Positions 8,217 to 51,914 of a stretch of DNA of 64,000 nucleotides are shown here, in pieces (the first letter of the stretch is position 1; every line of letters starts with the position of its first letter). Under the pieces are notes generated by a model. The model did no database searches, was not told where the DNA came from, and saw nothing but the letters and a program-made list of their open reading frames with translations. The stretch is from Taklimakanibacter albus (lineage in GTDB: Bacteria > Pseudomonadota > Alphaproteobacteria > Rhizobiales > Aestuariivirgaceae), in assembly GCF_016595235.1 (NCBI RefSeq), contig NZ_JAENHL010000007.1, positions 2,265,594 to 2,329,593 of the forward strand, in the 5' to 3' direction. The position numbers were made by a program, and so were the translations under genes.

Positions 8217-8295
8217 GATGTGGAGCCTTGCGCCAACTCGTCCTCAGGGACAAGCCCATGGCGAAAAGTGACGGCATTGCCTATATGAGGCGGCC

Positions 8296-9678
8296 ATGAA
8301 ACATGTCCCTGCGTCCATGGCCGAAGTGCTCCGGCGCGAGATCGCTTACCGCGATCCGGCGCTGCTGCTGCGCCGTTTTGCGCGCCGCAAGGACGTGACC
8401 TTCCTCGACAGCGCGGCCCAGCAGGGCGAGCTCGGCCGCTATTCCTACATCGCCGCCGACCCGTTCGAGACCTTTACCTTGGCGGAAGGCGAAGGCGGCC
8501 TCGCGGCTCTCGCCCGCCTCGACCGGCGATTGAAGCGCTGGAGCTTGCCGCCCGCGTCCGAGCTGCCGCCTTTCCAGGGCGGGTTCGCCGGCTATATCGC
8601 TTATGAATTCGCCCGTTTGCTCGAGCCGCAGATCAAGGCGCGGACTCCGGCGCCCGACATTCCGGCCATCGCCCTTCACGCTTACGACACGGTCGTCGCC
8701 TTCGATCATCAGGCGAGGCGCTGCTGGATCGTCTCAGCCGGTTTTCCGGAGACCGAGCCCGAGGCCCGCCTGCTGCGCGCCGAAGAGCGCCTCGCCGAAG
8801 TCGAGCAGCTCTGCCTCGAACCTGAACCGCCGCTTTCCGGCGACCATGTGATTGCCGGCTGGCAGTCGAATTTCACCCGCCCCGATTACGAGGCGGCGAT
8901 CCAGCGCACAATCGACTACATTCTCGCCGGCGACATCTTCCAGGCCAATATCGCGCAGCGCTTCACGGCAACCATTCCGGCGAGCTTCGATCCGCTCACT
9001 TTCTATCTCACTCTGCGCCAGCGCAATCCGGCAACCTTCGGCGCCTTTCTCGATTATGGCGCGGTGAAGATCGCCTCGAGCTCGCCCGAGCGTCTCATCA
9101 GCTTCGATGGCAGCCTTGCCGAAGCGCGCCCGATCAAGGGAACGCGGCGGCGCGACGCCAATGCCAGCATCGATGCCGAGCTGAAAGCCGAGCTTCTGGC
9201 GAGCCGCAAGGACCGCGCCGAGAATGTGATGATCGTCGATCTTCTGCGCAACGATCTCTCGCGCGTCGCCGAACCGGGCACGGTGCAGGTGCCGGTCCTC
9301 TGCGGACTCGAGACCTATGCCTCGGTGCATCACCTCACGTCGGTTGTCACCGGCCGTCTCGCGCCGGACAAGAGCCGCGGCGATCTCATCGCCGCCTGCT
9401 TCCCCGGCGGCTCGATCACCGGGGCGCCGAAGATGCGCGCCCAGGAGATCATCGCCGAGATCGAGCGCGTGCCGCGCAACGTCTATTGCGGCTCGATCGG
9501 ATACTTAAGCTTTACCGGCGGGATGGATCTCAACATCGCCATCCGCACCGTGCTGTTCCATGACGGCCGCGCCGAATTCCAGGGCGGCGGCGGCATCACC
9601 GCCAAATCGAATCCGGCGGACGAATATGAGGAGACCCTCGCCAAGGTGACACGCATTCAGGCGAGCTTCGAGACATGA
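8296..9678 (+). CDS. pabB: Aminodeoxychorismate synthase component I
   Basis: A 460-residue chorismate-utilising enzyme that, with PabA-supplied ammonia, makes 4-amino-4-deoxychorismate for folate. The motif PIKGT (Lys at about 281) has the Lys characteristic of PabB, where anthranilate synthase TrpE normally has PIAGT. FPGGSITGAPK and GGGITAKSNP are the conserved C-terminal chorismate-binding motifs. pabA begins inside its stop codon (ATGA overlap) and pabC follows the same way, giving a compact pab operon. Context and the Lys motif argue against TrpE. Confidence 0.93.
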   Translation: MKHVPASMAEVLRREIAYRDPALLLRRFARRKDVTFLDSAAQQGELGRYSYIAADPFETFTLAEGEGGLAALARLDRRLKRWSLPPASELPPFQGGFAGYIAYEFARLLEPQIKARTPAPDIPAIALHAYDTVVAFDHQARRCWIVSAGFPETEPEARLLRAEERLAEVEQLCLEPEPPLSGDHVIAGWQSNFTRPDYEAAIQRTIDYILAGDIFQANIAQRFTATIPASFDPLTFYLTLRQRNPATFGAFLDYGAVKIASSSPERLISFDGSLAEARPIKGTRRRDANASIDAELKAELLASRKDRAENVMIVDLLRNDLSRVAEPGTVQVPVLCGLETYASVHHLTSVVTGRLAPDKSRGDLIAACFPGGSITGAPKMRAQEIIAEIERVPRNVYCGSIGYLSFTGGMDLNIAIRTVLFHDGRAEFQGGGGITAKSNPADEYEETLAKVTRIQASFET

Positions 9679-39301: not shown

Positions 39302-39799
39302 CTACGGCGACACCAGATCGTCGAGCACCACGCCGCGATAGGGCTTCACCGCCTTCAGTACGATATAGGAGCTTAAGTTTCCCACTTTGGGACCAAGCCT
39401 CAGGAGCTCGTCCGACAGCATCTGATAGGAGCCGATATCGGGGCAGATGAAACGCACCAGATAATCGATGGTCCCCGAGACCTTGGTGCATTCGACGACA
39501 TATCGCATGTCGGCGACCATCTTTTCGAAATCGTTGAAATCCTCGAGGCCGTGGCTGTTCAGGGTGACGGCGGCGACGACGTCGACATGCCGGCACACTT
39601 TGTTGATGTCGACCTGAGCCTGGTACATCGCGATGATGCCGGCCCGCTCCAGCCTTTTGACGCGCTGCAGGCAGGGACTGGGCGACAAGCCCACCGCATC
39701 GGCCAATTCCTGGTTGGTGATGCGGGCATCGGTCTGCAGCTTGGCCAGGATCTTGAGGTCGAGATGATCGAGCCTCACGGATGCGTCGCTGTCTTTCAT
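39302..39799 (-). CDS. Lrp/AsnC family transcriptional regulator
   Basis: A 165-residue protein with an N-terminal helix-turn-helix (LDLKILAKLQTDARITNQEL, then SPSPCLQRVKRLE) and a C-terminal RAM ligand-binding domain (VAAVTLNSHGLEDFNDFEKM, ending in KAVKPYRGVVL). The ATG at 39799 follows GGGAGGAAGACT. Longer frames run into unrelated sequence. It faces the APC permease gene across 256 bases, the classic layout for an Lrp-type activator of amino-acid uptake and breakdown. Confidence 0.9.
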   Translation of the reverse strand: MKDSDASVRLDHLDLKILAKLQTDARITNQELADAVGLSPSPCLQRVKRLERAGIIAMYQAQVDINKVCRHVDVVAAVTLNSHGLEDFNDFEKMVADMRYVVECTKVSGTIDYLVRFICPDIGSYQMLSDELLRLGPKVGNLSSYIVLKAVKPYRGVVLDDLVSP

Positions 39800-40055
39800 A
39801 GTCTTCCTCCCGCCGAGTGCCATTTGACACCGAAGCGCGGATGCTGTCGAGTGGAACAGCAGAAACCGCTTTGCGGGGGACACATGCCGATAGCTTCGCT
39901 TGTGCGTGCCCTCAACTACGGCAGCACATTTTGGCCGTTTCACGGTAAAAGCGCCGTCAAGAAAAAGCGCGCTCAAGCGCCATCGAACGCCTAAGGCCGG
40001 CCGCATCCCACCTTGCGAGACCGGTTGCCGCTATAGGGGTGTTGGGAGGAAAATT

Positions 40056-41528
40056 ATGTCAGAACAGCAAACGCTGAGTTTCCGCCTGCTGCGCAAGAAA
40101 CCGGTCGAGAAGCTCATCAGCGAAACCCAAGGGGCCGATCCTGAGCACGGCCATCTCGGCCGCTCGATCACCCTCTTTCAGCTCATCATGTTCGGCGTCG
40201 GCGCCACCATCGGAACGGGTATCTTCTTCGTCCTCTCGGAGACCGTGCCGACCGCCGGACCGTCGGTCATCATTTCCTTCCTCATGGCGGGCGTCGTCGC
40301 CGGCCTCACCGCGCTCTGTTACGCCGAAATGGCCTCGATGATCCCGGTCTCGGGCTCATCCTATTCTTATGCCTATGCGACTTTGGGCGAAATCATCGCC
40401 TATTTCGTCGGCGCCTGTCTCGTTCTCGAATACGGCATCTCGGCTTCCGCCGTCGCCATCGGCTGGAGCGGCTATCTCAACAAGCTGTTCGAGATCGTCT
40501 TCGGCTCGGGCCTCCCCGCGGCGCTTTCCGCCGCCCCCCTCATTTCCGACAATCACCGGCTCGCCGTCGGCGGCGACGGCTATATCAACCTGCCGGCCGC
40601 CATCCTGGTCTTCCTCTGCTGCCTGATGCTCATCCGCGGTACCAAGGAATCGGCCAAGGCCAATGCCATCATGGTGATGATCAAGATCGGCGTCCTCATC
40701 CTCTTCATCGCCATCGCCGTCACCGGTTTCTCCGCCAGCAACTTCCAGCCTTTCGCGCCCGCGGGCTTCGCCGGCATCAGCGCCGCCGCCGGCACCATCT
40801 TCTTCACCTATGTCGGCCTCGATGCAGTCTCGACCGCCGGCGAAGAAGTGGAGAATCCGAAACGCAACCTGCCGCTCGCCATCATCGCGGCGCTCATCAT
40901 CGTGACCTCGCTCTATGTATTGACCGCGGTGACGGCGCTCGGCGTCCAGCCGGCCGCCGCCTTCGAAGGCCAGGAAGCAGGCCTCGCCACCATCCTGCAG
41001 AACCTCACCGGCTCGAACTGGCCGGCGCTGATCCTCGCCATGGGCGCCGTCATCTCGGTGTTCAGCGTGACGCTGGTGGTGCTCTACGGCCAGACCCGCA
41101 TCCTCTTCGCCATGTCGCGTGACGGGCTCATCCCCGAGCTGTTTCACCGCGTCAATCCGCGCACTTTGTCGCCGGTCGCCAACACCATCGCGGTGGCTTT
41201 GTTCGTCGGCGCCATCGCCGCCTTCATCCCCAATGACATCCTGTGGGACCTGACGAGCCTCGGCACGCTCACCGCCTTCATCGTCGTCTCGGCCGGCGTG
41301 ATGATCCTGCGCCGCACCAAGCCCGATCTGCCACGCGGCTTCAAAGTGCCGCTCTATCCGGTGCTGCCCATCCTCAGCATCCTGTCCTCGCTCTATCTGA
41401 TCTCCAACCTCAAGGTGCAGGTCTACGAGCTGTTCGGTATCTGGCTGTTCCTCGCGGCGGTCTTCTATTTCCTCTACAGCGTGAAGAAGTCCCGGCTCGA
41501 GCCCAAAGCTCGCATCACCAAGTCGTAA
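40056..41528 (+). CDS. APC-superfamily amino-acid permease
   Basis: A 490-residue protein with about 12 membrane segments. The N-terminal motif FGVGATIGTGIFFVLSETVP and SGSSYSYAYATLGEIIAYFV match the cationic-amino-acid-transporter-like branch of the APC superfamily. GTKESAKANAIMVMIKIGVL and the cytoplasmic GQTRILFAMSRDGLIPELF are further hallmarks. GGGAGGAAAATT precedes the ATG. As first gene of the cluster it is likely to import the amino acid metabolised downstream; a basic amino acid is a fair guess. Confidence 0.9.
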   Translation: MSEQQTLSFRLLRKKPVEKLISETQGADPEHGHLGRSITLFQLIMFGVGATIGTGIFFVLSETVPTAGPSVIISFLMAGVVAGLTALCYAEMASMIPVSGSSYSYAYATLGEIIAYFVGACLVLEYGISASAVAIGWSGYLNKLFEIVFGSGLPAALSAAPLISDNHRLAVGGDGYINLPAAILVFLCCLMLIRGTKESAKANAIMVMIKIGVLILFIAIAVTGFSASNFQPFAPAGFAGISAAAGTIFFTYVGLDAVSTAGEEVENPKRNLPLAIIAALIIVTSLYVLTAVTALGVQPAAAFEGQEAGLATILQNLTGSNWPALILAMGAVISVFSVTLVVLYGQTRILFAMSRDGLIPELFHRVNPRTLSPVANTIAVALFVGAIAAFIPNDILWDLTSLGTLTAFIVVSAGVMILRRTKPDLPRGFKVPLYPVLPILSILSSLYLISNLKVQVYELFGIWLFLAAVFYFLYSVKKSRLEPKARITKS

Positions 41529-41543: not shown

Positions 41544-42440
41544 ATGAAATACCTGGTTGCCTATTCGGCCGATCGCGGCGGACAGGAAGCGCTCTCCCTC
41601 GGCATGATGCTGTCGAAGCGCGACAAGGCGAAGCTCGTCGTCTGCCTCATATTACCCAAGACCTGGGGCTATCCCTCGATGGCCAATGTCGATGCGGAAT
41701 ATGCCGCCTTCCTCGACAAGCACGCACAGAAGACGCTCGACAAGGCGAAAGCCTATGTCGGCGATCAGCTGCCGGTGCAGTTCATCACCCGCAACAACAA
41801 CTCGGCCGAGGAAGGCCTCATCGCCACGGCCGAGGAACTTGGCGCCGACATCATCGTGCTCGGCTCCTCGCGCAGCGCCGCCTCGGGCAAATTCCTGGAA
41901 GGCAGCGTCACCCGCCACCTGCTGCATCTGTCGAAATTGCCGGTGGCGCTGGCGCCGCGCGGCTTCGAGGCGGGACCTAAGACGGTGCTCACCCGCTTGA
42001 CCTGCGCCTTCGCGGCGACGCGCAAGTCACGCGCCACCGTCGAATATTGCCTGAAATTCGCCCGCAAATATCAGGTCCCGTTGCGCCTCTCCACTTTCGT
42101 GGTGCGCGACAAGCAGATGTATCCGACGGGCGCCGGCTACCAGGTCGAGAATCTCGTCGCCAATCAATGGAAGAGCCAGGCGACCACGGCGCAGAAGGCG
42201 CTGCTCGGCGACTTGCAGAGTGACGTGCCGGTCAAGACGCAGATCGGTGACGGCGCCAACTGGAAGGAGGCACTCTCCTCCATCGGCTGGAAACCCGGCG
42301 AGATGCTGGTGATCGGCTCGGGCCGCATCGGTCCACTGGCTCAGGTCTTTCTCGGCTCCAATGGCAGCCGCATCATCCGCAACGCACCGGTGCCGATGAT
42401 CATCGTGCCGCGCACCGCCGAATTCCATGATGAGGAATGA
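41544..42440 (+). CDS. Tandem universal stress protein
   Basis: A 298-residue protein with two USP-like halves. The first ends with IVLGSSRSAASGKFLEGSVT and LPVALAPRG; the second ends with LVIGSGRIGPLAQVFLGSNG and PVPMIIVPR. The G-x2-G-x9-G-type ATP motif is therefore approximately kept in both. It starts 15 bases after the permease. USP proteins next to APC permeases may modulate transport by nucleotide binding; this is inference. Confidence 0.85.
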   Translation: MKYLVAYSADRGGQEALSLGMMLSKRDKAKLVVCLILPKTWGYPSMANVDAEYAAFLDKHAQKTLDKAKAYVGDQLPVQFITRNNNSAEEGLIATAEELGADIIVLGSSRSAASGKFLEGSVTRHLLHLSKLPVALAPRGFEAGPKTVLTRLTCAFAATRKSRATVEYCLKFARKYQVPLRLSTFVVRDKQMYPTGAGYQVENLVANQWKSQATTAQKALLGDLQSDVPVKTQIGDGANWKEALSSIGWKPGEMLVIGSGRIGPLAQVFLGSNGSRIIRNAPVPMIIVPRTAEFHDEE

Positions 42441-42501: not shown

Positions 42502-44109
42502 GTGCCCACCTGTGGTGAATTCCTCGTCAAGATTCTCGAAGCCTATGGCGTCGACACGATTTTCGGCATCCCCGGCGTCCATACCGTCGAGCTCTATCGC
42601 GGCCTGCCGCAGACACGCATCCGCCATGTGACACCGCGCCATGAGCAGGGCGCCGGCTTCATGGCCGACGGCTATGCGCGCGCCTCGGGCAAGCCCGGCG
42701 TGTGTTTCATCATCACCGGCCCCGGCATGACCAATATCGCCACCGCCATGGGCCAGGCCTATGCCGACTCGATCCCCATGCTGGTGATCTCGAGCGTCAA
42801 TGACCGCACCCATCTCGGCATGGCGCAAGGCCGCCTGCACGAGCTTCCCTCGCAGCGCAATCTCATCGCCGGCGTGTCGGCTTTCAGCCACACGGTGCTC
42901 GATCCCAAGCAGCTGCCGGAAGTGCTGGCCCGCGCTTTCGCGGTCTTCTCGGGTTCGCGCCCGCGGCCCGTCCATATCGAGCTGCCGCTCGACGTCATCA
43001 CCGCACGCATGACCGGCAAGGCCAAGGCCTGGCCGCTGCCCTCACGCCCCGCCGCCGAGCCGCAGCTGATCGCTGCCGCGGCAAAGCTGCTGAAAAGCGC
43101 CAAGACGCCGCTGATCATTGCCGGCGGCGGCGCCGCGGATGCGGCGCCTGGCATCCAGAAGCTTGCCGAGACGCTCGACGCGCCGGTCTTCACCACCATC
43201 AACGGCAAAGGCATTCTGCCGCCCGGCCACAAATTGGCGCTCGCCGGTAATCTCGGCATGGATGCGGCACAGGCCGAGCTCGAAGCGAGCGATGTCGTCC
43301 TCGCCATCGGCACCGAATTCGGCGAGACCGAAATGTATCCGGCGGCGCGCCCCGTCGAGGTCGCGGGCAAGCTCATCCGCATCGACATCGATCCCTTGCA
43401 GCTCGTCAACCAGCTGCCTGCCGATATCGCCATCACCGCCGACAGCGCCCTCGCTGTCGCGGCGCTGAATGACGCGGTCGGCTCGACCGTCCAGTCGCGT
43501 AAAGGCGCCGAGCGTGCCGCCGCCACGCGCAAGAAGATCACCAGCAAATTGTGGCCCGCCTGCAAGACGCATGGTCGCCTTCTCGAGGTGATCAGCAAGG
43601 CGCTGCCGGATGTGGTCATCGCCGGCGACCAGACCGAGCCGGTCTATGCCTCGAACCAGACCTATGAAGCGCCGAAGCCGCGCTCCTATTTCAATTCGAG
43701 CACCGGTTACGGCACGCTGGGTTATGGGCTTCCCGCCGCGATCGGCGCCAAGCTCGGCCAGCCGGATCGTCCCTCCGTTTGCCTCATCGGCGATGGCGGC
43801 CTGCAATTCTCGCTGCCCGAGCTCGCTTCCGCCGTCGAGGCGCAAGTGCCGCTCGCGGTGGTGATCTGGAACAACACCGGCTATGGCGAGATCAAGGCCT
43901 ATATGATGGAGCGCCAGATCCCCGAGATCGGCGTCGACATCTACACGCCGGATTTCGTCACCATCGCCTCAGGGCTGGGCTGCAAGGCCGTGCGTCCCGC
44001 CAATATCGCGGCGCTGCACAAGGAGCTCGTCCAGTCGGCGAAGCGCAAGGTCCCGACCGTCATTGAAATCCGCGCCGGCGACAGCCTCGCCCGCGAACTG
44101 GCCAAGTGA
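42502..44109 (+). CDS. ThDP-dependent 2-oxoacid decarboxylase, AruI-like
   Basis: A 535-residue acetolactate-synthase-fold enzyme starting with GTG after AAGGAG. The activating Glu is Glu48 in VTPRHEQGAGFMADGYARAS. The ThDP motif runs from CLIGDGGLQFSLPELASAVE to WNNTGYG. The motif FGIPGVHTVELYRGLP is reminiscent of proteins annotated as 5-guanidino-2-oxopentanoate decarboxylase (AruI). Acetolactate synthase is less likely because there is no small subunit and the next gene is an aldehyde dehydrogenase. It would convert 2-ketoarginine, or a similar 2-oxo acid, to an aldehyde. Confidence 0.8.
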   Translation: MPTCGEFLVKILEAYGVDTIFGIPGVHTVELYRGLPQTRIRHVTPRHEQGAGFMADGYARASGKPGVCFIITGPGMTNIATAMGQAYADSIPMLVISSVNDRTHLGMAQGRLHELPSQRNLIAGVSAFSHTVLDPKQLPEVLARAFAVFSGSRPRPVHIELPLDVITARMTGKAKAWPLPSRPAAEPQLIAAAAKLLKSAKTPLIIAGGGAADAAPGIQKLAETLDAPVFTTINGKGILPPGHKLALAGNLGMDAAQAELEASDVVLAIGTEFGETEMYPAARPVEVAGKLIRIDIDPLQLVNQLPADIAITADSALAVAALNDAVGSTVQSRKGAERAAATRKKITSKLWPACKTHGRLLEVISKALPDVVIAGDQTEPVYASNQTYEAPKPRSYFNSSTGYGTLGYGLPAAIGAKLGQPDRPSVCLIGDGGLQFSLPELASAVEAQVPLAVVIWNNTGYGEIKAYMMERQIPEIGVDIYTPDFVTIASGLGCKAVRPANIAALHKELVQSAKRKVPTVIEIRAGDSLARELAK

Positions 44110-45560
44110 TGCAGGACAAGCTTTATATTGACGGCGTGTGGCGTGCCCCCGTGAAAGGGGGCAAGCTGCCCGTCTTCAATCCCTATACCGAACAGGTCAT
44201 CCATCATGTCGCGGCGGGTGGCCCTGAGGATGTGGATCTCGCGGTAAAAGCGGCGGCCAGGGCCTTTCCGGCCTGGCGCCGCACCTCCGGCGCCGTGCGC
44301 GGGCAGTTCCTGCGCGCCATCGCCGAGAAGGTGCGTCAGCGCAAAGACGAGCTCGCCCGGCTGTCCTCGCTCAACAATGGCAAGCCCTACGCCGAGGCGC
44401 TCATCGACATGCAGGATGTCGCGTCCTCCTTCGACTATTATGGCGGGCTCGCCGCCGATCTCGACCGCGAGCAGGATTCCCCCGTTTCGGTGCCGGACGG
44501 CGCCTTCCGCGCCAGCCTTCGGCGTGAGCCGATCGGCGTCGCCGGTCTGATCGTGCCGTGGAATTTCCCGATGGTGACGACCTCGTGGAAAGTGGCGCCG
44601 GCGCTTGCCGCCGGCTGCACCGTGGTGCTGAAGCCGTCCGAGGTGACGCCCATCGTCGAGCTCGAGCTCGGCGTGATCGCCGATGAGATCGGATTGCCCA
44701 AAGGCGTGCTCAATCTCGTCACTGGACTGGGCCCCGATGTCGGCGCCCCGCTCACCACCCATAAGGATGTCGCCAAGATCTCCTTCACCGGCAGCAACGG
44801 TGTGGGCTCGCGCGTGATGGCGGCGGCCGCGGCCGGTCCCAAGGCGGTGAGCCTAGAGCTCGGCGGAAAGTCGCCGATCGTCGTCTTCGCCGATGCCGAT
44901 CTCGACATCGCCACCGAATGCGTGGTGAACGGCATCTTCTTCAATGCCGGCCAGATGTGCTCGGCGACCTCCAGGCTTCTGGTCGAGGAATCGATCGCGC
45001 CGAAGCTGATGGCGCGGGTCATTGCGGCAGCCAAGGCCTTGCAGCCGGGCGATCCGCTCGATCCCAAGACGACTCTGGGTCCCCTCACCACCAGAGCCCA
45101 ATATGACAAGGTCCTGTCCTACATCGCCAAGGGCAAGGCCGAAAAACTCGATCTGATCCTGGGCGGCGACAGGCCGGAAGGGCTCGACACCGGCTGGTTC
45201 ATCGCTCCGACGATATTCGGCGATGTCCCGGTTTCGAGCCCTCTCTGGCGTGAAGAGATTTTCGGGCCCGTTCTGTGCGTGAAGACCTTCACCAGCGAGG
45301 ATCAGGCGGTGGCGCTCGCCAATGACAGTGATTTTGGCTTGGTGGCGACAGTGATCAGCAAGGATACGGTGAAAGCCGAGCGCGTCGCCGACGCGATCGA
45401 CACCGGCCTCGTCTGGATCAACAGCCCGCAGGTCATTTTCGTCGAGACCTCCTGGGGCGGCTTCAAGGCGAGCGGCATCGGCCGCGAGCTCGGGCCCTGG
45501 GGCCTCGATGCCTATCTCGAAGTCAAGCACAAAGCGCGTCGGATAAGTTCGGCGGCCTAA
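44109..45560 (+). CDS. Aldehyde dehydrogenase, NAD(P)-dependent
   Basis: A 483-residue aldehyde dehydrogenase. The general-base Glu (near residue 250) is in SLELGGKSPIVVFADADLDI and the nucleophile Cys (near 284) in [33 protein letters not shown] is the NAD-binding region. Its ATG overlaps the decarboxylase stop by one base (TGATG); a GTG three bases earlier is possible. Direct coupling to the decarboxylase suggests that it oxidises the decarboxylase's aldehyde product, for example 4-guanidinobutyraldehyde to 4-guanidinobutyrate (KauB-like). Confidence 0.88.
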   Translation: MQDKLYIDGVWRAPVKGGKLPVFNPYTEQVIHHVAAGGPEDVDLAVKAAARAFPAWRRTSGAVRGQFLRAIAEKVRQRKDELARLSSLNNGKPYAEALIDMQDVASSFDYYGGLAADLDREQDSPVSVPDGAFRASLRREPIGVAGLIVPWNFPMVTTSWKVAPALAAGCTVVLKPSEVTPIVELELGVIADEIGLPKGVLNLVTGLGPDVGAPLTTHKDVAKISFTGSNGVGSRVMAAAAAGPKAVSLELGGKSPIVVFADADLDIATECVVNGIFFNAGQMCSATSRLLVEESIAPKLMARVIAAAKALQPGDPLDPKTTLGPLTTRAQYDKVLSYIAKGKAEKLDLILGGDRPEGLDTGWFIAPTIFGDVPVSSPLWREEIFGPVLCVKTFTSEDQAVALANDSDFGLVATVISKDTVKAERVADAIDTGLVWINSPQVIFVETSWGGFKASGIGRELGPWGLDAYLEVKHKARRISSAA

Positions 45561-45572
45561 AAGGGGAAAGCG

Positions 45573-47027
45573 ATGCAGACGGTCAGGAACGTTTCGGATT
45601 TGCGCAATGTCATGCATCGCAACGAGCAGCCGATCTATTTCATCTCGGCCACCAACTTCAACCTGATCGGCATCGACCAGTGGGTGCGCAATCTCAAATT
45701 CATCTCCTATATCGACTGTTTCGACGGCCGCCACCCGAATGTCTTCGTGCCCTCCAAGGCACCGCATGATGAGTTCGAATCGATCGAAGACATCAACAAT
45801 CACATGCTTCAGCACAAGGATGTGATCGATCATGTGAAGAAGCGCGGCGGCAAGCCGGCGGCGACCTTCCTGATGTTCAACGAGGAAACCGAAGGCCTCT
45901 GCGAAGAGCTCGGCATCGACGTCTGGTTTCCGCAAGCGAAGCTCCGCTCGCGCTGCGACAATAAGATGGAGACGGTCCGCATCGGCAACAAAGCGGGCGT
46001 CGCCTCGGTGCCGAACACGTTGGCCCGCGCGTCGAGCTATGACGAGCTGATCAAGGTCGCCGACAAGGCGAAGATCGGTCGCGACCTGGTGGTACAGAGC
46101 GCCTTCGGCGATTCCGGCCACACCACATTCTTCATCGCCAATGAGCAGGACTTCGCCCGCCATGCGAAGGACATCACCGGCGAGAAGGAAGTGAAGATCA
46201 TGAAGCGGATCAAATGCCGGGGTGCCACGATGGAGGCCTGCGCGACGCGGTCCGGCACGCTGGTCGGCCCGCTTTTGACCGAAGTGGTCGGCCGCAAGGA
46301 ACTGACGCCATACAAGGGCGGCTGGTGCGGCAATGAGATCTTCCCCGGCGCCTTCAGCGAAAAAGTGCGCAACAAGGCGCGTGACATGGCGTTCCGCTTC
46401 GGCAACCGGCTGATCAAGGAAGGTTATCGCGGCTATTTCGATCTCGATTTCCTGATTGATGAGACTGACGGCGAGGTCTATCTGGGCGAGCTCAATCCGC
46501 GCATCTGCGGCGCCTCCTCGATGACCAATCACGCGGCCTTCGCTTATGCCGATGCACCACTCTTCCTGTTCCACCTACTCGAATTCTCCGGTCTCAAATA
46601 CAAGATCGACGTCGAGGAGCTGAATGAGCGCTGGGCCAAGAAGGAGTTCATCGATTCCTGGTCGCAGCTCGTCATCAAATCGACCGATGATATCGTCGAC
46701 ATCGTGACCCACGCGCCGCCGACCGGCGTCTACCGCATGGCGAGCGACGGCTCGGTCTCCTATGACCGTTTCGACTATAACCGCCAGGCGATCGAATCCG
46801 AGCGCGAGGCTTTCTTCCTGCGCATCACCGGCCCCGGCGACTATCGCTATGAAGGCGCCGATCTCGGCATCTTGATCACCCGCGGCCGGGTGATGAGCGA
46901 CGATTTCGACTTGAACGACCGGGCGCGCGATTGGATCAAGGGGATCAAGAAGCTCTATGCGGCGAAACCGCTGAGCGAAGTGCAAAGGGAGGAAGCCCCG
47001 GCGCCCGGGTCGTTCAAGATATTGTGA
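45573..47027 (+). CDS. ATP-grasp family ligase of unknown substrate
   Basis: A 484-residue protein. The ATP-grasp fold is indicated by VVQSAFGDSGHTTFFIAN, KEVKIMKRIKCRG, and the magnesium/phosphate-binding DLDFLIDETDGEVYLGELNP followed by RICGASS. It starts 12 bases after the aldehyde dehydrogenase with GGGGAAAG before the ATG. ATP-grasp enzymes join a carboxylate to an amine or thiol through an acyl phosphate. It resembles carboxylate-amine ligases more than carboxylases. With the C45 hydrolase next door, it may make or activate an amino-acid conjugate. The substrate is unknown. Confidence 0.75.
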   Translation: MQTVRNVSDLRNVMHRNEQPIYFISATNFNLIGIDQWVRNLKFISYIDCFDGRHPNVFVPSKAPHDEFESIEDINNHMLQHKDVIDHVKKRGGKPAATFLMFNEETEGLCEELGIDVWFPQAKLRSRCDNKMETVRIGNKAGVASVPNTLARASSYDELIKVADKAKIGRDLVVQSAFGDSGHTTFFIANEQDFARHAKDITGEKEVKIMKRIKCRGATMEACATRSGTLVGPLLTEVVGRKELTPYKGGWCGNEIFPGAFSEKVRNKARDMAFRFGNRLIKEGYRGYFDLDFLIDETDGEVYLGELNPRICGASSMTNHAAFAYADAPLFLFHLLEFSGLKYKIDVEELNERWAKKEFIDSWSQLVIKSTDDIVDIVTHAPPTGVYRMASDGSVSYDRFDYNRQAIESEREAFFLRITGPGDYRYEGADLGILITRGRVMSDDFDLNDRARDWIKGIKKLYAAKPLSEVQREEAPAPGSFKIL

Positions 47028-47030
47028 ATT

Positions 47031-47145
47031 TCCCTCGTGCTGAGGTGCGAGCGCAGCGAGCCTCGAAGCATCCCTCAGGATAGGGCGAATTTGTGGATAC
47101 AGACCCTTCGAGGCCCGCCTTCTGCGGGCACCTCAGGGTGAGGAT
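47031..47145. repeat. Composite palindromic repeat, family C copy 2
   Basis: Left arm CCTCGTGCTGAGGTGCGAGC, then CGCAGCGAGCCTCGAAGCAT. Right arm AGACCCTTCGAGGCCCGC, then CACCTCAGGGTGAGG. It lies between the ATP-grasp and C45 genes. Its right end provides the GAGGATAGGTGGG that serves as ribosome-binding site of the C45 gene. Confidence 0.75.
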
Positions 47146-47152
47146 AGGTGGG

Positions 47153-48181
47153 ATGAACCTCGTCTTCGAAGCGATCGCGGAAGACCAGCCGGGGCCGAAA
47201 TGGCGGGCGATCTATGACCGTCATTGGCACGCCTATAGCCGCTGGTTCATGCGCGACGGCATGAAGGCGCGCCCGACCTATCTGGCGAGCCTGCGCGCTT
47301 TGCGCCAGCATATGCCGGAATTGCTGCCCGCTTATGAGCGGATCGCCGAGACGGCGGGCGGCGGTGATCTCGAAGCGCGCTTCCTCTCGATGTGGTGCCC
47401 GCCCATGTATGTCGGCGGCTGCTCGCAGGCAATCAGCGTCGGCAGCGCGCCCGCCCTCTTGCGCAATTACGACTACAGCCCCGAGCTTCTGGAAGGTACC
47501 TGGCTCGCCTCCAGGCTCCATGGCCGCCGCGTCCTCGCGGTGGTCGACTGCCTGTGGGGCGTGCTCGACGGGATCAATGAGGATGGCCTTGCCGTATCGC
47601 TCGCTTTCGGCGGGCGCACCGCGGTCGGCGACGGCTTCGGCATCCCGATCGTCATGCGCTATGTGCTCGAATTCGCATCGACCGTCGCCGAGGCGGTGAA
47701 GATCCTCGACCGCGTGCCGGTGCATATGTCCTATTCGGTGGCACTGCTCGACCGGAAGGGACGCCATGCCACCGTCTTCGTGGCGCCGGATCGCCCGACC
47801 GAGGTCCTCGGCCGGCGCGTCAGCACCAATCACCAGCATGAGATCGAATGGCCGCGCCATGCCGCGGCCACCCGCTCGCTGGAGCGTGCCGAAAGTCTCG
47901 ATGCGGCGATGGTGGATGCACCGGAGGCGGAAGAGCTGCTCAAGGCCTTTTTGCGCCCGCCGGTTTTCCAGACGTCTTATGGGCGCGGCTATGGTACCCT
48001 CTATACGGCGCTCTACCGGCCCGAAGATTCATCCGCCGAGCTGATCTGGCCGGTGGCGCGCTGGCGCCAGTCTTGCGCCCGGTTCGAGGAAGGTTCGCGC
48101 AGCATCCGCTTTGCCGAAGGCACGACGCCGCCACGCTTGCGGCCGCCCAAAGGCACGGCCATCAGGGGAGGCATCCTATGA
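47153..48181 (+). CDS. C45-family autoproteolytic acyltransferase/hydrolase
   Basis: A 342-residue Ntn-type enzyme of the isopenicillin N acyltransferase (C45) group. The predicted nucleophile Cys90 is in MYVGGCSQAISVG, followed by LLRNYDYSPE and the core motif GINEDGLAVSLAFGGR. C45 proteins cleave themselves to expose the Cys and then hydrolyse or transfer acyl groups on amides. The ATG at 47153 lies at the end of a family C repeat. The DadA-like gene overlaps its stop by 4 bases (ATGA), so it probably acts in the same pathway, perhaps releasing an amino acid from an N-acyl or peptide conjugate. Confidence 0.8.
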   Translation: MNLVFEAIAEDQPGPKWRAIYDRHWHAYSRWFMRDGMKARPTYLASLRALRQHMPELLPAYERIAETAGGGDLEARFLSMWCPPMYVGGCSQAISVGSAPALLRNYDYSPELLEGTWLASRLHGRRVLAVVDCLWGVLDGINEDGLAVSLAFGGRTAVGDGFGIPIVMRYVLEFASTVAEAVKILDRVPVHMSYSVALLDRKGRHATVFVAPDRPTEVLGRRVSTNHQHEIEWPRHAAATRSLERAESLDAAMVDAPEAEELLKAFLRPPVFQTSYGRGYGTLYTALYRPEDSSAELIWPVARWRQSCARFEEGSRSIRFAEGTTPPRLRPPKGTAIRGGIL

Positions 48182-49428
48182 AAGTGCTGGTGCTCGGCGG
48201 CGGTGTGGTCGGCGTGGCCGCCGCTTATTATCTGGGCCGCGACGGCTACGAGGTCGAGCTCATCGAGCGCAACGCCGAATTGGCGCGCGAAACGAGCTAT
48301 GGCAATGCCGGCCTCGTCTCGCCCGGCGATTCTTATGCCTGGGCTTCGCCCGCGGCGCTGGCCGTCTTCATCAAGTCGCTCTACCGGCCTGATCTCGGCA
48401 TCAAGGTGCGTTTCAATCTCGATCCGCATTTCATCGCCTGGGGCTGGAAGTTCCTGTTCGAATGCACCCATGCACGCGCGCATATCAACACTTTGCGCAA
48501 GCTGCGGCTCGCCTTCTATTCCAAGGCCTGCATCAATGAGATCGCCGCCGCGACCAAGGTCGACTATGACGCGGACGGCAAAGGCATCCTCTATTTCTTC
48601 CGCTCGCAGGAAACCCTCGATGCCGGCGCCAAACATATGCGGATCCTCTCGGATAACGGCCTGACGCTCGACGTGATCGGGCGCGAGCGCCTGGTCGAGC
48701 TGGAGCCCGGCCTCAAGGCAGCAGCCCCCGGCATCGCCGGCGCCGTTTATTCGCCGATCGACCAGACTGGTGATTCCTGCAAATTCTCGCGCAACCTCGC
48801 CAGCTGGTGCGCGCAGAATCTCAACGTCCGCCTGCGCCTCGGCACGACCGTGACCGGCATCGAGACACAAGGTGATCGCGTCACCACTATCCTCACCGAC
48901 AAGGGCCGGCTCGATTGCGATGCGGTCGTCATAGCGCTGGGTCCCGAGACGCCGCTCCTCACCCGCAAGATCGGCCTCAATGTCCCGATCTATCCGGTGA
49001 AAGGTTATTCCGCCACCTTGCCGCTCGACGATCCCGCAAAGGGCCCGACCATGGGCGGTGTCGATGAGGACCGGCTCATCGCCTATTCGAGGCTGGGCGA
49101 TCGCCTGCGCGTGGCGAGCACGGCGGAATTCGCCGGTTACGACAGAAGCCACAGGCCTTCGGATTTCACGCGGCTTCTCGCCACCGCGGAAGATCTCTTT
49201 CCCGGTGCCTTCGACCGCGCGAAAGCCGAATACTGGGCAGGGCTCAGACCGATGACGCCGGCCTCGGTGCCGATATTGGGCCGGGCGCGCTATGCCAATC
49301 TCTTTCTCGATTGCGGCCATGGCCATGTCGGCTGGACGATGGCCTGCGGATCGGGGAAATTCGTCGCCGATCTCGTTTCCGGCCGTAAGCCCGAGATCGA
49401 CACCGACGGCCTTCTTTATGTGAATTGA
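48178..49428 (+). CDS. D-amino-acid dehydrogenase (DadA-like)
   Basis: A 416-residue flavoprotein. The dinucleotide motif VLVLGGGVVGVAAAYYLGRD is at the N-terminus, the DadA-like motif ETSYGNAGLVSPGDSYAWAS follows, and the C-terminal FAD segment is LFLDCGHGHVGWTMACGSGK. Members deaminate D-amino acids to 2-oxo acids and pass electrons to the respiratory chain. It overlaps the C45 gene by 4 bases. With the racemase downstream and the AruI-like decarboxylase upstream, a D-arginine or D-ornithine substrate is plausible. Confidence 0.88.
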   Translation: MKVLVLGGGVVGVAAAYYLGRDGYEVELIERNAELARETSYGNAGLVSPGDSYAWASPAALAVFIKSLYRPDLGIKVRFNLDPHFIAWGWKFLFECTHARAHINTLRKLRLAFYSKACINEIAAATKVDYDADGKGILYFFRSQETLDAGAKHMRILSDNGLTLDVIGRERLVELEPGLKAAAPGIAGAVYSPIDQTGDSCKFSRNLASWCAQNLNVRLRLGTTVTGIETQGDRVTTILTDKGRLDCDAVVIALGPETPLLTRKIGLNVPIYPVKGYSATLPLDDPAKGPTMGGVDEDRLIAYSRLGDRLRVASTAEFAGYDRSHRPSDFTRLLATAEDLFPGAFDRAKAEYWAGLRPMTPASVPILGRARYANLFLDCGHGHVGWTMACGSGKFVADLVSGRKPEIDTDGLLYVN

Positions 49429-49461
49429 ATGTCGACACTCGCAAGAACCATCTCTCTCAGC

Positions 49462-49576
49462 ACCCTCATGCTGAGGTGCCCGGCGCAAGCCGGGCCTCGA
49501 AGCATCCTTCAGGATAGAGTGAGAGTGCTGCAGCAGACCCTTCGAGGCTCGCTGCGCTCGCACCTCAGGGTGAGGG
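49462..49576. repeat. Composite palindromic repeat, family C copy 3
   Basis: Left arm CCCTCATGCTGAGGTGCCC, then GGCGCAAGCCGGGCCTCGAA. Right arm AGACCCTTCGAGGCTCGC, then CACCTCAGGGTGAGG. It lies between the DadA-like and racemase genes. Confidence 0.75.
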
Positions 49577-49614
49577 TGAGAGGGTTGCCTCAACTCATCA
49601 TGGCATAGATCACA

Positions 49615-51456
49615 ATGCCCGGCCCGCAAGTCACCATCGACCTCGAACGGATCGAGCGCAATGCCAGAACGGTCGTGTCCTGGTGCGCCGAGGCCGGTAT
49701 TTCCACCTTCGGCGTCACCAAGGGCGCCTGCGGCATGCCGCAAGTGGCGCGCGCCATGCTGCGCGGTGGCGTTCAGGGCCTCGCCGAATCGCGTTTCGAG
49801 AATATCAAACGTTTGCGCGACGCCGGCATCGACGCGCCGATCATGCTGCTGCGCTCGCCGCCTCTGTCGCTCATCGACGAGGTCGTCCGCTCCGTCGATG
49901 TCAGCCTCAATTCCGAGCTGACCGTCATCCGTGAGCTGTCGCGCGTCGCCGAGCGCATGGGCCGCATCCACGACATCATCCTGATGATCGATCTGGGCGA
50001 TCTGCGCGAAGGCATCTGGCCCGACGATCTCATCCCGACGGTAGAGCAGATCCTCGCGCTGCCGGGGATCCGCATCGCCGGACTCGGCACCAATCTCACC
50101 TGCTTCGGCGCCATCATCCCGACCGAAGTCAATCTCGGCCAGCTGACCGACCTCTCCGACACGGTAAGGAAGACCTTCGGCCTCGATCTCACTTACATAT
50201 CGGGCGGCAATTCGAGCTCGCTGCCGCTGCTGCTGTCGGGCGGCATGCCCAAGGGCATCAACAATCTGCGCGTCGGCGAGGCGATATTGCAGGGTGGGCG
50301 CGACACGTTCCTCGATACACCGCGGCCTGAACTCGACCGTGACGTCTTTCTGCTGTCCGGCGAACTGCTGGAAGTGAAGATGAAGCCCTCGATGCCGATC
50401 GGCAAATCGGGCGTCGACGCCTTCGGCGGCCGCCCGGTCTTCCAGGACATCGGCGAGCGGTTGCGCGGCATCGTCAATATCGGGCGCGAGGATGCGCATA
50501 TCGAAGGTCTCTTGCCGGTGGCGCCCGGCATCATCGTGCTCGGCGCTTCGAGCGACCACCTGATCCTCGACGTCACCGAGGCGGCAAATCCGCCCCGGGT
50601 CGGCGATAAAGTGAATTTCCGCATGAGCTATGGCGCCCTGCTCGCCGCCATGACCTCCGAATATGTGGAGAAGATTCCGATGTATGACCGCCATGCCGCC
50701 ACCCCCGCCTCACGCGTGAGCATTTTCGCCGATGAGGCCGTGGCGCCGGTGCTCCACAAGCAGACGCTCGACGGCCGGCTCGCCAATATCGGCTATGACG
50801 TCGACTTCACCACCGCGACTTCCGCCGACGCCATCGCGCGGGCGCTGGACCGGCGCGCCACACCTCTGGTCTTCGGTGCCGACCACCGCACCAGCTTCGC
50901 GGCGATGAAGGCGCTGAGCGGAAGCTTTGACGCCTTCGGCCTCATCTGGCTCGATTCAGTGGCGAGCATGTTGCCCGAGCAGCCGGGACAGGCGGTAGCG
51001 GGGGAATCGGCACTCTACCGGGCGCTGGGCTTAGGCACAGGGGCCGAACCGCTGGCGCCGAAATTGTCGCCTGAGAATGTCGTGCTCATAGGCTTGCGCG
51101 AAACCGCGCCGGAGGAAGTGGAGATCCTGAAATCCGCCCGGCTCAAGATCTTCACCATCGCCGATATCGACGCCCTCGGTATGCGCGAGGTGATCCGCCA
51201 GGCGGTGCAGATCGCTTCCGCCGGCATGCAGGGCTTCCATGTGAGCTACAACCCCGCCGTCACCGACATTCCGGGCCATCTGCCGGGGTCGGGCGGCATC
51301 ACTGTGCGTGAAACACATCAGGTGATGGAAGCGATCCATCAGAGCAAGGCGATGCGGGGCATGGACATCACTGGCCTCGATGGCGAGACGGAACCGCGCC
51401 TCGCTTCGGTGATCGTGCATTTCGCACTTTCCGCATTTGGCAAAAGAATCCTGTAA
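49615..51456 (+). CDS. Fusion: ornithine-racemase-like PLP domain plus degenerate arginase domain
   Basis: A 613-residue protein. Residues 1 to about 355 match the alanine/ornithine racemase fold-III family: PLP Lys36 in FGVTKGACGMPQVARAML, LAESRFENIKRLRDAGI, MIDLGDLREGIWP, and SGGNSSSLPLLL with NNLRVGEAIL. Residues from about 370 to the end align by motif with arginase: PLVFGADHRTSF (usually GGDHS), LIWLDSVAS (usually DAHxD), PENVVLIGLRE, and HVSYNPAVTDIP (usually SxDxDxxDP), ending GKRIL. Of the six usual manganese ligands only the GADH His424 and Asp447 appear kept; the other positions are Val449, Ser, Asn546 and Ala548. The C-terminal domain is therefore probably catalytically dead. Confidence 0.82.
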   Translation: MPGPQVTIDLERIERNARTVVSWCAEAGISTFGVTKGACGMPQVARAMLRGGVQGLAESRFENIKRLRDAGIDAPIMLLRSPPLSLIDEVVRSVDVSLNSELTVIRELSRVAERMGRIHDIILMIDLGDLREGIWPDDLIPTVEQILALPGIRIAGLGTNLTCFGAIIPTEVNLGQLTDLSDTVRKTFGLDLTYISGGNSSSLPLLLSGGMPKGINNLRVGEAILQGGRDTFLDTPRPELDRDVFLLSGELLEVKMKPSMPIGKSGVDAFGGRPVFQDIGERLRGIVNIGREDAHIEGLLPVAPGIIVLGASSDHLILDVTEAANPPRVGDKVNFRMSYGALLAAMTSEYVEKIPMYDRHAATPASRVSIFADEAVAPVLHKQTLDGRLANIGYDVDFTTATSADAIARALDRRATPLVFGADHRTSFAAMKALSGSFDAFGLIWLDSVASMLPEQPGQAVAGESALYRALGLGTGAEPLAPKLSPENVVLIGLRETAPEEVEILKSARLKIFTIADIDALGMREVIRQAVQIASAGMQGFHVSYNPAVTDIPGHLPGSGGITVRETHQVMEAIHQSKAMRGMDITGLDGETEPRLASVIVHFALSAFGKRIL

Positions 51457-51554
51457 GTGTCATTGACGCAACTACAACTTGACGTAGCCGCGTGTTTGAT
51501 GCAAGCTACAGGCGAGAGGGCCTACTTTGCGCGATTTTCGCGGGAGGCTATGTC

Positions 51555-51914
51555 ATGCAAGTGATCAAGGTTGCGGTGCGGTGCGCTCTGGTTGCGGCGG
51601 TCGCGGTAACTGGCGGCTTGTGGCTCAAGAGTCTCGTCATCGGACCGACGACAGCCGCGACCAGATATGAATGCCTTCCTCCCTTCAAATGCGACAAGCA
51701 GAGCGACGAACAAAGATCGCGAAGCTCCAGCAGCATTGGCAACACGGCGAGCAGTAGCAGTAGCAGTGGCAGCACGAGCGATACGAGCAGCACCAGCGAC
51801 ACCAGCAGCACGGCGGACACCAGCAGCACGAGCGATACGAGCAACACCGTCGCCGACAGCAGCTCTACGAACGACAGCGACAGCGGGGTCGATTGGGACG
51901 TTCAGATAGACTGA
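51555..51914 (+). CDS. Exported Ser/Thr/Asp-rich low-complexity protein
   Basis: A 119-residue protein. The N-terminal hydrophobic segment (VAVRCALVAAVAVTGGLWL) is a signal peptide or anchor. It is followed by a short segment with two Cys (YECLPPFKCDKQ) and then a disordered region of about 65 residues rich in Ser, Thr and Asp, including repeated D-T-S-S-T units (about residues 76-95). GGGAGG precedes the ATG at 51555. No family was recognised. The next gene, a membrane methyltransferase-like protein, begins 28 bases downstream. Confidence 0.6.
   Translation: MQVIKVAVRCALVAAVAVTGGLWLKSLVIGPTTAATRYECLPPFKCDKQSDEQRSRSSSSIGNTASSSSSSGSTSDTSSTSDTSSTADTSSTSDTSNTVADSSSTNDSDSGVDWDVQID

Follow-up and report, generated by a model that had tools for sequence, protein, structure and literature searches.

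What does an amino acid racemase gain from an arginase domain that has lost its metal site? The question is raised by one open reading frame (ORF) of Taklimakanibacter albus (Rhizobiales, Aestuariivirgaceae), located at 49615-51456 of the stretch analysed here, a window of 64,000 nucleotides (assembly GCF_016595235.1, contig NZ_JAENHL010000007.1, positions 2,265,594 to 2,329,593). By sequence and structure prediction, this ORF joins a pyridoxal phosphate (PLP) racemase domain to an arginase domain of RocF type that lacks a working metal site. The reading that we favour, with a probability of roughly 0.45, is that the racemase is active and that the pseudo-arginase has been retained for assembly and arginine sensing, as residue conservation, models and analogy with bacterial arginases would suggest.

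A racemase domain and a pseudo-arginase domain in one frame

The elements of the fusion that concern us first are the following.

49615..51456, + strand: racemase/pseudo-arginase fusion, 613 aa (ORF call, Pfam/NCBIfam, model)
49615..50673, + strand: fold-type III PLP racemase domain of the ornithine-racemase family, residues 1-353 (Pfam, NCBIfam Orr)
49720-49722, + strand: codon of K36, the PLP lysine, invariant in 10 aligned fusions
50674..51453, + strand: RocF-type pseudo-arginase domain, residues 354-613 (Pfam, C-domain model, PDB matches, tree)
50884..50967, + strand: former metal site, part 1; H424 and D447 remain, V449 replaces His and S451 replaces Asp
51250..51258, + strand: former metal site, part 2; N546 and A548 replace both Asp of SxDxD

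An earlier, sequence-only reading had described a PLP racemase followed by an arginase-like half, quoting the motifs FGVTKG (with K36), GDLREGIWP, SGGNSS, DSVAS, SYNPAVTDI, PENVVLIGLRE and GKRIL, all of which are present, and both assignments hold. The N-terminal half matches Ala_racemase_N (PF01168) at residues 8-224 (E 1.5e-28) and, over residues 4-353, the NCBIfam Orr model NF040742, where its 415.6 bits lie below the curated cut-off of 480; the unfused racemase L026 reaches 528.4 bits. Fused and unfused rows share K36 and the remaining near-invariant positions of the Orr family, each conserved in 90% or more of them. In the PDB, the 50 top-ranking Foldseek matches of the full-length AlphaFold2 model (pLDDT 86.0, pTM 0.65) all have the alanine-racemase fold, a lysine racemase included. 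The C-terminal half belongs to the arginase superfamily by its Pfam match (PF00491, residues 395-593, 79 bits, gathering cut-off 22), and at residues 400-589 it scores 74.8 bits with rocF_arginase (TIGR01229), below the curated cut-off of 227.6. Modelled in isolation (pLDDT 84.7, pTM 0.87), it is predicted to fold as a ureohydrolase, its 17 best PDB matches being the arginases of Bacillus subtilis, B. cereus and B. caldovelox (query TM scores 0.81-0.85; 0.82 for 2cev, from B. caldovelox). The domain also falls on the RocF side of the arginase-family tree and not on the agmatinase/guanidinobutyrase side.

We compared 28 distinct fusions in three groups: A, 17 sequences from Hyphomicrobiales including the window; B, three sequences from a Shinella-family sample (L065-L067); and C, eight sequences from a Lentisphaeria metagenome-assembled genome (MAG) and its relatives. 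Duplicates were dropped (L010, from the L017 genome; L012, equal to L018; L051, equal to L023; L057, equal to L021), as was L064, which is cut by a contig end. L048 and L061 are one sequence and stand outside the ligand and conservation counts, with L048 included in the context and substitution-rate sets; L050 was omitted from both trees and L031 from the racemase tree. The frame is open through the arginase domain in all 28, and this single open frame, together with conservation across the fusions, rules out a chance resemblance or a frameshifted pseudogene. The pseudo-arginase domain is under purifying selection: the ratio of non-synonymous to synonymous substitution rates (dN/dS) is 0.077-0.266 in 12 pairs, compared with 0.039-0.292 for the racemase domain. 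The first half of the arginase domain varies in length and sequence across the fusions, and the second half has the lower dN/dS in 12 of 12 pairs, which are within-group pairs and not all independent. Three other genomes of the genus carry close fusions, 96, 90 and 82% identical; since these, the 28 distinct fusions and the dN/dS of the C-terminal domain agree, the fusion is not a sequencing artefact.

As a reference for the metal site we used 16 RocF sequences from Bacillota, which have H D H D D D at the six ligand positions. The window reads H D V S N A and keeps the canonical residue at two (H424, D447). The earlier claim that most ligands are gone is thus borne out, four of the six being replaced, and five of the six positions indeed fall within the two motifs that it had singled out, DSVAS and SYNPAVTDI. 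Homologues with all six ligands, which would have spoken against a dead site, were found in none of the 28 fusions; the first 24 keep at most two ligands each, and among four added later L107 keeps three (HSHDVN) and the others fewer. L107, from the class sample, has the least eroded metal site of the 28 and is a possible intermediate. Position by position, the canonical ligand is kept in 11, 20, 2, 5, 0 and 1 of 28 fusions, so that Asp is found at position 546 in none and at 548 in one. The first Asp ligand is lost in 8/8 members of group C and kept in 20/20 of groups A and B; because different groups lost different ligands, the erosion was not one frozen event.

Five other substrate-site positions all differ from RocF in the window, and groups A and B keep none or one of them; group C ranges from 5/5 (L023, L052, L106) down to 1/5 (L107). 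The position of the catalytic Glu277 of human arginase is occupied by G587, so this Glu is lost. E566 was considered as its counterpart and rejected, as the ligand offsets place E566 at human E256. In the samples searched, no fusion had an intact metal site, and a six-ligand rocF was seen beside orr only as a separate gene (L110-L113). On this sequence evidence the C-terminal domain is very probably not a working arginase.

Working relatives of ornithine decarboxylase/arginase (ODA) reportedly exist, as the title of Mothersole 2022 implies. The ODA of Fusobacterium nucleatum resembles the window protein in joining a PLP enzyme to a dead C-terminal arginase domain, so such a layout is not unprecedented; going by its published description rather than an alignment, the N-terminal domain is a decarboxylase instead of a racemase, and two metal-binding Asp are lost (Ser609, Asn713) compared with four ligands in the window (PMC12826042). 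The covered text of that account merely suggests a structural role for the dead domain and does not mention a retained arginine site (PMC12826042). The earlier statement that no protein of this layout had been described therefore needs narrowing, a near layout being in print; for the racemase version it holds within the literature covered, in that neither a racemase with an arginase domain, nor its pattern of loss and retention, nor its operon, nor such a protein in connection with an arginine racemase or the 2-ketoarginine route was found in the open PubMed Central papers searched.

Interface residues that outlive the active site

If catalysis is gone, what has selection kept? Conservation in at least 15 of the 16 RocF sequences marks 83 columns, 13 of which are retained by 26 or more of the 28 fusions: P355, G442, G493, R495, D519, G522, A530, G561, R565, E566, E572, S606 and G609. 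The same 13 columns emerge with 24 fusions, and an hmmsearch alignment of the first 24, made independently, agrees on the kept residues wherever it covers them. Two divergent RocF rows, L092 and L093, were excluded from the reference set after their divergence was seen and are reported separately below. The charged survivors are these.

51097..51099, + strand: R495, in 26/28 fusions
51169..51171, + strand: D519 (human arginase D204 position), in 28/28 fusions
51307..51312, + strand: R565-E566 (human R255-E256 positions), in 28/28 fusions
51328..51330, + strand: E572 (human E262 position), in 28/28 fusions

We take the human metal ligands to be H101, D124, H126, D128, D232 and D234; offsets from these numbers make R495, D519, R565, E566 and E572 the presumed counterparts of human R180, D204, R255, E256 and E262. 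In an alignment to B. caldovelox arginase, D519 and E572 pair with residues 199 and 256, respectively. To judge from titles in reference lists, Glu256 and Asp204 reportedly matter for how human arginase I oligomerises and for its cooperativity, and B. caldovelox arginase is said to have an allosteric arginine site.

This set of residues points to the subunit interface. According to the available text of PMC7925462, Arg308 of human arginase bonds Glu262 of the same chain and, in the rat enzyme, Asp204 of the adjacent subunit; R308A arginases are monomeric, and guanidinium brings back both the trimer and cooperativity; and B. caldovelox arginase, which has no Arg308 equivalent, binds L-arginine in the same interface region (3CEV). 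Human E256 is placed inside an allosteric site in the text available (PMC12267995). By alignment, the window would thus possess the residues of the RocF interface arginine site (R495, D519, R565, E566, E572), and the acidic pair that would hold the interface arginine is among the few survivors. Compared with the B. caldovelox enzyme of 3CEV, the window domain shares the predicted fold and the R/D/R/E/E residues but differs at four of six metal ligands and at all five substrate-site positions tested.

As a control we examined ten ureohydrolases of the agmatinase/guanidinobutyrase side, namely eight of the 17 PF00491 matches of the window's own genome and one each from L021 and L099. All ten keep HDHDDD and none has the complete RDREE set; the counterparts of D519 and E572 are Asp and Glu in 0/10, those of R565-E566 are Arg-Glu in 2/10, and that of R495 is Arg in 10/10. 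L092 and L093, the two divergent RocF-like rows, likewise have 6/6 ligands and lack the D519/E572 pair. Since both sets do without it, the pair is not needed by the fold or by general ureohydrolase chemistry, with the caveat that these branches may have other contacts in its place. The fusion family therefore separates two properties of arginase in natural mutants, the metal site being broken and D519/E572 kept in 28/28, with the reverse in the controls. If arginine binds at D519/E572, the interface site of bacterial arginases could be tested here without interfering catalysis, and a simple route from enzyme to sensor would be documented.

The sequence-only reading had offered a sensor or a scaffold as the function of the dead domain. 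This is still the best explanation, and the kept interface residues, which the earlier reading had missed, now suggest a concrete site for it. That the domain acts through its oligomer interface is somewhat probable. That it senses arginine there, by analogy with the Bacillus enzyme, is a more tentative proposal.

Several observations weigh against the favoured reading as a whole. R495, R565 and E566 are less informative than D519/E572 because they are also found in controls, and the kept cluster could serve folding or assembly alone. For five kept out of 27 conserved D/E/R/K/H/N columns, the chance probability of retaining the D204, E256 and E262 positions is 0.0034 and that of two named residues 0.028, in a test that is weak and post hoc. 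In B. caldovelox arginase, according to the text available, the interface mutation E278A disrupted the hexamer and hardly altered the kinetics (PMC11271267), so that a change of assembly does not have to affect activity. The full-length pTM of 0.65 leaves the mutual placement of the two domains uncertain. Arginine-pathway neighbours occur in 0/7 loci of groups B and C, and the substrate may differ there or everywhere. Finally, the trees leave a single origin unsettled: a clade of all fusions is not rejected by the arginase-domain tree (p-AU 0.38), and in the racemase-domain tree it is a borderline case (p-AU 0.069), the unfused L013 there grouping with A and B.

The strongest competitor holds that the trimer interface of the pseudo-arginase simply gathers the racemase into a larger oligomer, with no small molecule sensed. 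It accommodates the match of D519 and E572 to residues of a known subunit interface, the erosion in groups A and B of the region that holds most of the pocket, and the lower dN/dS of the domain's second half. What it explains less well is that both residues are acidic and that their known partner is a guanidinium group. Moreover, the window protein ends in GKRIL like bacterial RocF, and so presumably has no Arg308-type tail to replace a bound arginine. We regard assembly alone as rather unlikely, albeit the least unlikely of the alternatives.

A probable arginine operon and the likely substrate of the racemase

What the racemase acts on is suggested by its neighbours. The genes preceding the fusion are as follows.

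39302..40006, - strand: divergent Lrp/AsnC regulator (listed ORF; start probably further in; 39302-39946 scanned)
40053..41528, + strand: amino acid permease
41544..42440, + strand: counterpart of a gene of Shinella-type operons that is annotated universal stress protein (similarity to L021 and L049; no NCBIfam match itself)
42502..44109, + strand: thiamine diphosphate (ThDP) enzyme, 5-guanidino-2-oxopentanoate decarboxylase (NF005712, 769.7 bits, cut-off 500)
44106..45560, + strand: aldehyde dehydrogenase, candidate 4-guanidinobutyraldehyde dehydrogenase by inferred substrate (no model over cut-off among the matches listed)
45573..47027, + strand: ATP-grasp protein annotated biotin carboxylase (PRK06524, 771 bits, cut-off 684)
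47093..48181, + strand: C45 autoproteolytic acyltransferase/hydrolase (NF040521, 181 bits, cut-off 85)
48190..49428, + strand: FAD D-amino acid dehydrogenase of DadA type (PRK00711, 426.6 bits, cut-off 383)

From the divergent Lrp through permease, universal-stress-type protein, decarboxylase, aldehyde dehydrogenase, ATP-grasp, C45 and dehydrogenase to the fusion, L017 and L018 show an identical gene order, as do L019, L021 and L022 up to their contig ends. L020 lacks the ATP-grasp and C45 genes and has, besides the decarboxylase and the dehydrogenase, a guanidinobutyrase-type gene; L024 has the dehydrogenase alone. Shinella-type plasmids carry an extra gene annotated agmatinase and a RidA-family-annotated gene directly after the fusion. 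The L021 counterpart of the former is by its sequence a guanidinobutyrase (PDB 3nio, 508 bits), and the window genome encodes, outside the window, a protein 86% identical to it that would probably have the same function. As to the latter, Rid2 and Rid3 and not the RidA or Rid1 subfamilies deaminate iminoarginine from D-arginine dehydrogenase, in the text available (PMC5619798).

Context separates fused from unfused racemases. Among 11 unfused loci (L025-L034 and L100), OraE and OrtB of the D-ornithine aminomutase pathway are found in 10 (L028 has neither) and the decarboxylase or dehydrogenase in none; for the 25 alphaproteobacterial and similar unfused rows in the tree, the flanks extend over only about 1.5 kb. 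Among 20 fused loci (13 of group A, seven of B and C), OraE occurs in none of the flanks examined, the dehydrogenase in 12 and the decarboxylase in eight, all in group A, where two contigs end before the decarboxylase could show. Orr is free-standing and, in 10 of these 11 unfused loci, beside D-ornithine aminomutase genes, whereas the window domain is fused and below the Orr cut-off.

Because the operon combines a guanidino-keto-acid decarboxylase with a D-amino acid dehydrogenase, conversion of L-arginine into D-arginine by the racemase is likely, and arginine is, judging from these neighbours, the likely main substrate in the window operon. The ornithine racemase identity first proposed thus gives way to a more likely arginine racemase, given a score below the Orr cut-off and neighbours that fit the route from D-arginine through 2-ketoarginine to 4-guanidinobutyrate. 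No RocF is available in the genome by the curated cut-off (0/17 arginase-family matches), so the D-arginine route may be its main arginine route. A likely arginine racemase and a likely D-arginine operon are added for Taklimakanibacter, Shinella and related Hyphomicrobiales.

In the scheme that we propose, the racemase would turn L-arginine into D-arginine and the dehydrogenase would oxidise this to 2-ketoarginine, from which 4-guanidinobutyraldehyde and then 4-guanidinobutyrate would arise through the ThDP enzyme and the aldehyde dehydrogenase; the 4-guanidinobutyrate would be split into GABA and urea by the putative guanidinobutyrase encoded elsewhere in the genome. The pseudo-arginase would still assemble via the RocF trimer interface, and racemase dimers and pseudo-arginase trimers may form a hexamer. 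The D519/E572 acidic pair would bind the guanidinium of free L-arginine at the subunit interface, as in the Bacillus arginase, and the bound L-arginine would promote assembly or activity of the racemase, a feed-forward effect coupling it to the arginine level.

AruI, KauB and GbuA belong to the 2-ketoarginine route of Pseudomonas, and we know of no racemase-arginase fusion in Pseudomonas D-arginine catabolism. The window operon resembles that system, to which DauA belongs (available text of PMC5619798), in its 2-ketoarginine/4-guanidinobutyrate route and differs in that its dehydrogenase is of DadA type, with no DauA structure among its PDB matches at E 1e-10.

The alternative that the protein is an ornithine racemase, whose arginase part is a relic merely reflecting an old arginine-to-ornithine route, draws on the Orr-type domain itself (415.6 bits) and on L013, the closest unfused relative found (same family, 52% identity), which lies directly behind a D-ornithine aminomutase gene. 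It also draws on the Bacillota, where four of 299 genomes of a Caldanaerobacter phylum sample contain an unfused orr followed by a separate rocF with six ligands, one of the four pairs (L131) being downstream of ortB and oraE and two others near a contig start. The absence of OraE from all 20 fused loci, the guanidino keto acid decarboxylase of the window operon, and the guanidinobutyrase and RidA-family protein added in Shinella-type operons speak against it, and we consider it unlikely. In the racemase domain, a single position differs (232) between the fused rows of groups A and B (19) and nine OraE-linked rows, and it is no obvious specificity switch.

More improbable still is that the dead domain partners an active ureohydrolase in a hetero-oligomer, for example the guanidinobutyrase of the operon. 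The model for this is metformin hydrolase, which requires the metal-free arginase-family subunit MetCb; like the window domain, MetCb is an arginase-family pseudoenzyme, and its non-catalytic role is proven, but it is a separate subunit for an active ureohydrolase and not a PLP-enzyme fusion (PMC11271267, text available). The functions, biochemical and physiological, of earlier pseudoenzymes of the family were called elusive in 2024 (same text). A guanidinobutyrase-type gene is present in Shinella-type operons, and in L099 of group B a ureohydrolase gene lies 1 nt upstream of the fusion. Yet the window domain is RocF-type, the neighbouring ureohydrolases are agmatinase-side and lack the D519/E572 pair, and the window holds no second PF00491 match. 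That the domain is a decaying remnant without function, as its variable first half might suggest, is scarcely credible in view of 28 open frames, a dN/dS of 0.077-0.266 in 12 pairs and four charged residues kept in 28/28.

Distribution, ancestry and further observations

The fusion occurs in four of five same-genus genomes (relatives sample, own genome included) and, in a 385-genome class sample at E <= 1e-60, in no genome outside the genus, 13 others matching the racemase part only. It is found in at least 11 of 247 genomes of the Shinella-family sample (eight full-length matches and three confirmed divergent ones, with one further match cut by a contig end), in 4/240 and 8/197 genomes of overlapping phylum and class samples around the Lentisphaeria MAG, in three plasmid records and in eight of 18 loci of a genome-contig scan; it is found in none of the 299 genomes of the Caldanaerobacter phylum sample. 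In that sample, the gap between orr and rocF is 12-33 nt in the three pairs where a start codon was found, and adjacent orr and intact rocF genes are a possible precursor of the fusion. A plausible history would start from such a pair, leading from arginine through ornithine to D-ornithine, and continue with fusion and loss of ureohydrolase activity. That this fusion recruited the intersubunit L-arginine pocket of RocF, an allosteric site outlasting the catalytic one, as a built-in receptor that sets both assembly and activity of the racemase where a D-arginine pathway begins is a distinctly tentative extension. L013 was also considered as a split fusion and rejected, being the racemase of an ornithine operon with no arginase match beside it; its contig ends about 0.7 kb downstream.

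The surroundings of the fusion differ between groups. An EamA transporter gene lies downstream in all four group C loci examined (L023, L094, L095, L096), two of which have an Lrp-type regulator beside the fusion, with no decarboxylase or dehydrogenase match in the flanks examined; the layout looks as if a D-amino acid were produced for export. In group B a MATE-type gene is beside or near the fusion in 3/3 (by Pfam for L097, by eye for the other two), and in L098 a caspase-domain protein (Peptidase_C14, 6712-8844) adjoins it.

Within the operon, the ATP-grasp (PRK06524) and C45 genes accompany the arginine genes in L017-L019, L021, L022 and the Shinella-type plasmids, and the pair could attach and remove a protecting amide group. 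Of nine matches to the guanidino-oxopentanoate decarboxylase family in the window genome, four are over the cut-off, and each of the three that fall outside the window has a ureohydrolase gene within about 10 kb; with 17 arginase-family matches, this is an unusual-looking expansion of guanidino-acid catabolism, judged on one genome alone.

The intergenic gap between the dehydrogenase and fusion genes (49429-49614) folds strongly (z -4.08) and holds a dispersed palindromic element (49452-49590, about 125 bases) with 53 matches listed in the genome, some of them both strands of one copy; in L017, the nearest relative, the same two genes are about 10 bases apart. After the fusion, a small ORF (51492-51914) encodes a repetitive tail rich in Ser, Thr and Asp, possibly of a secreted or surface protein.

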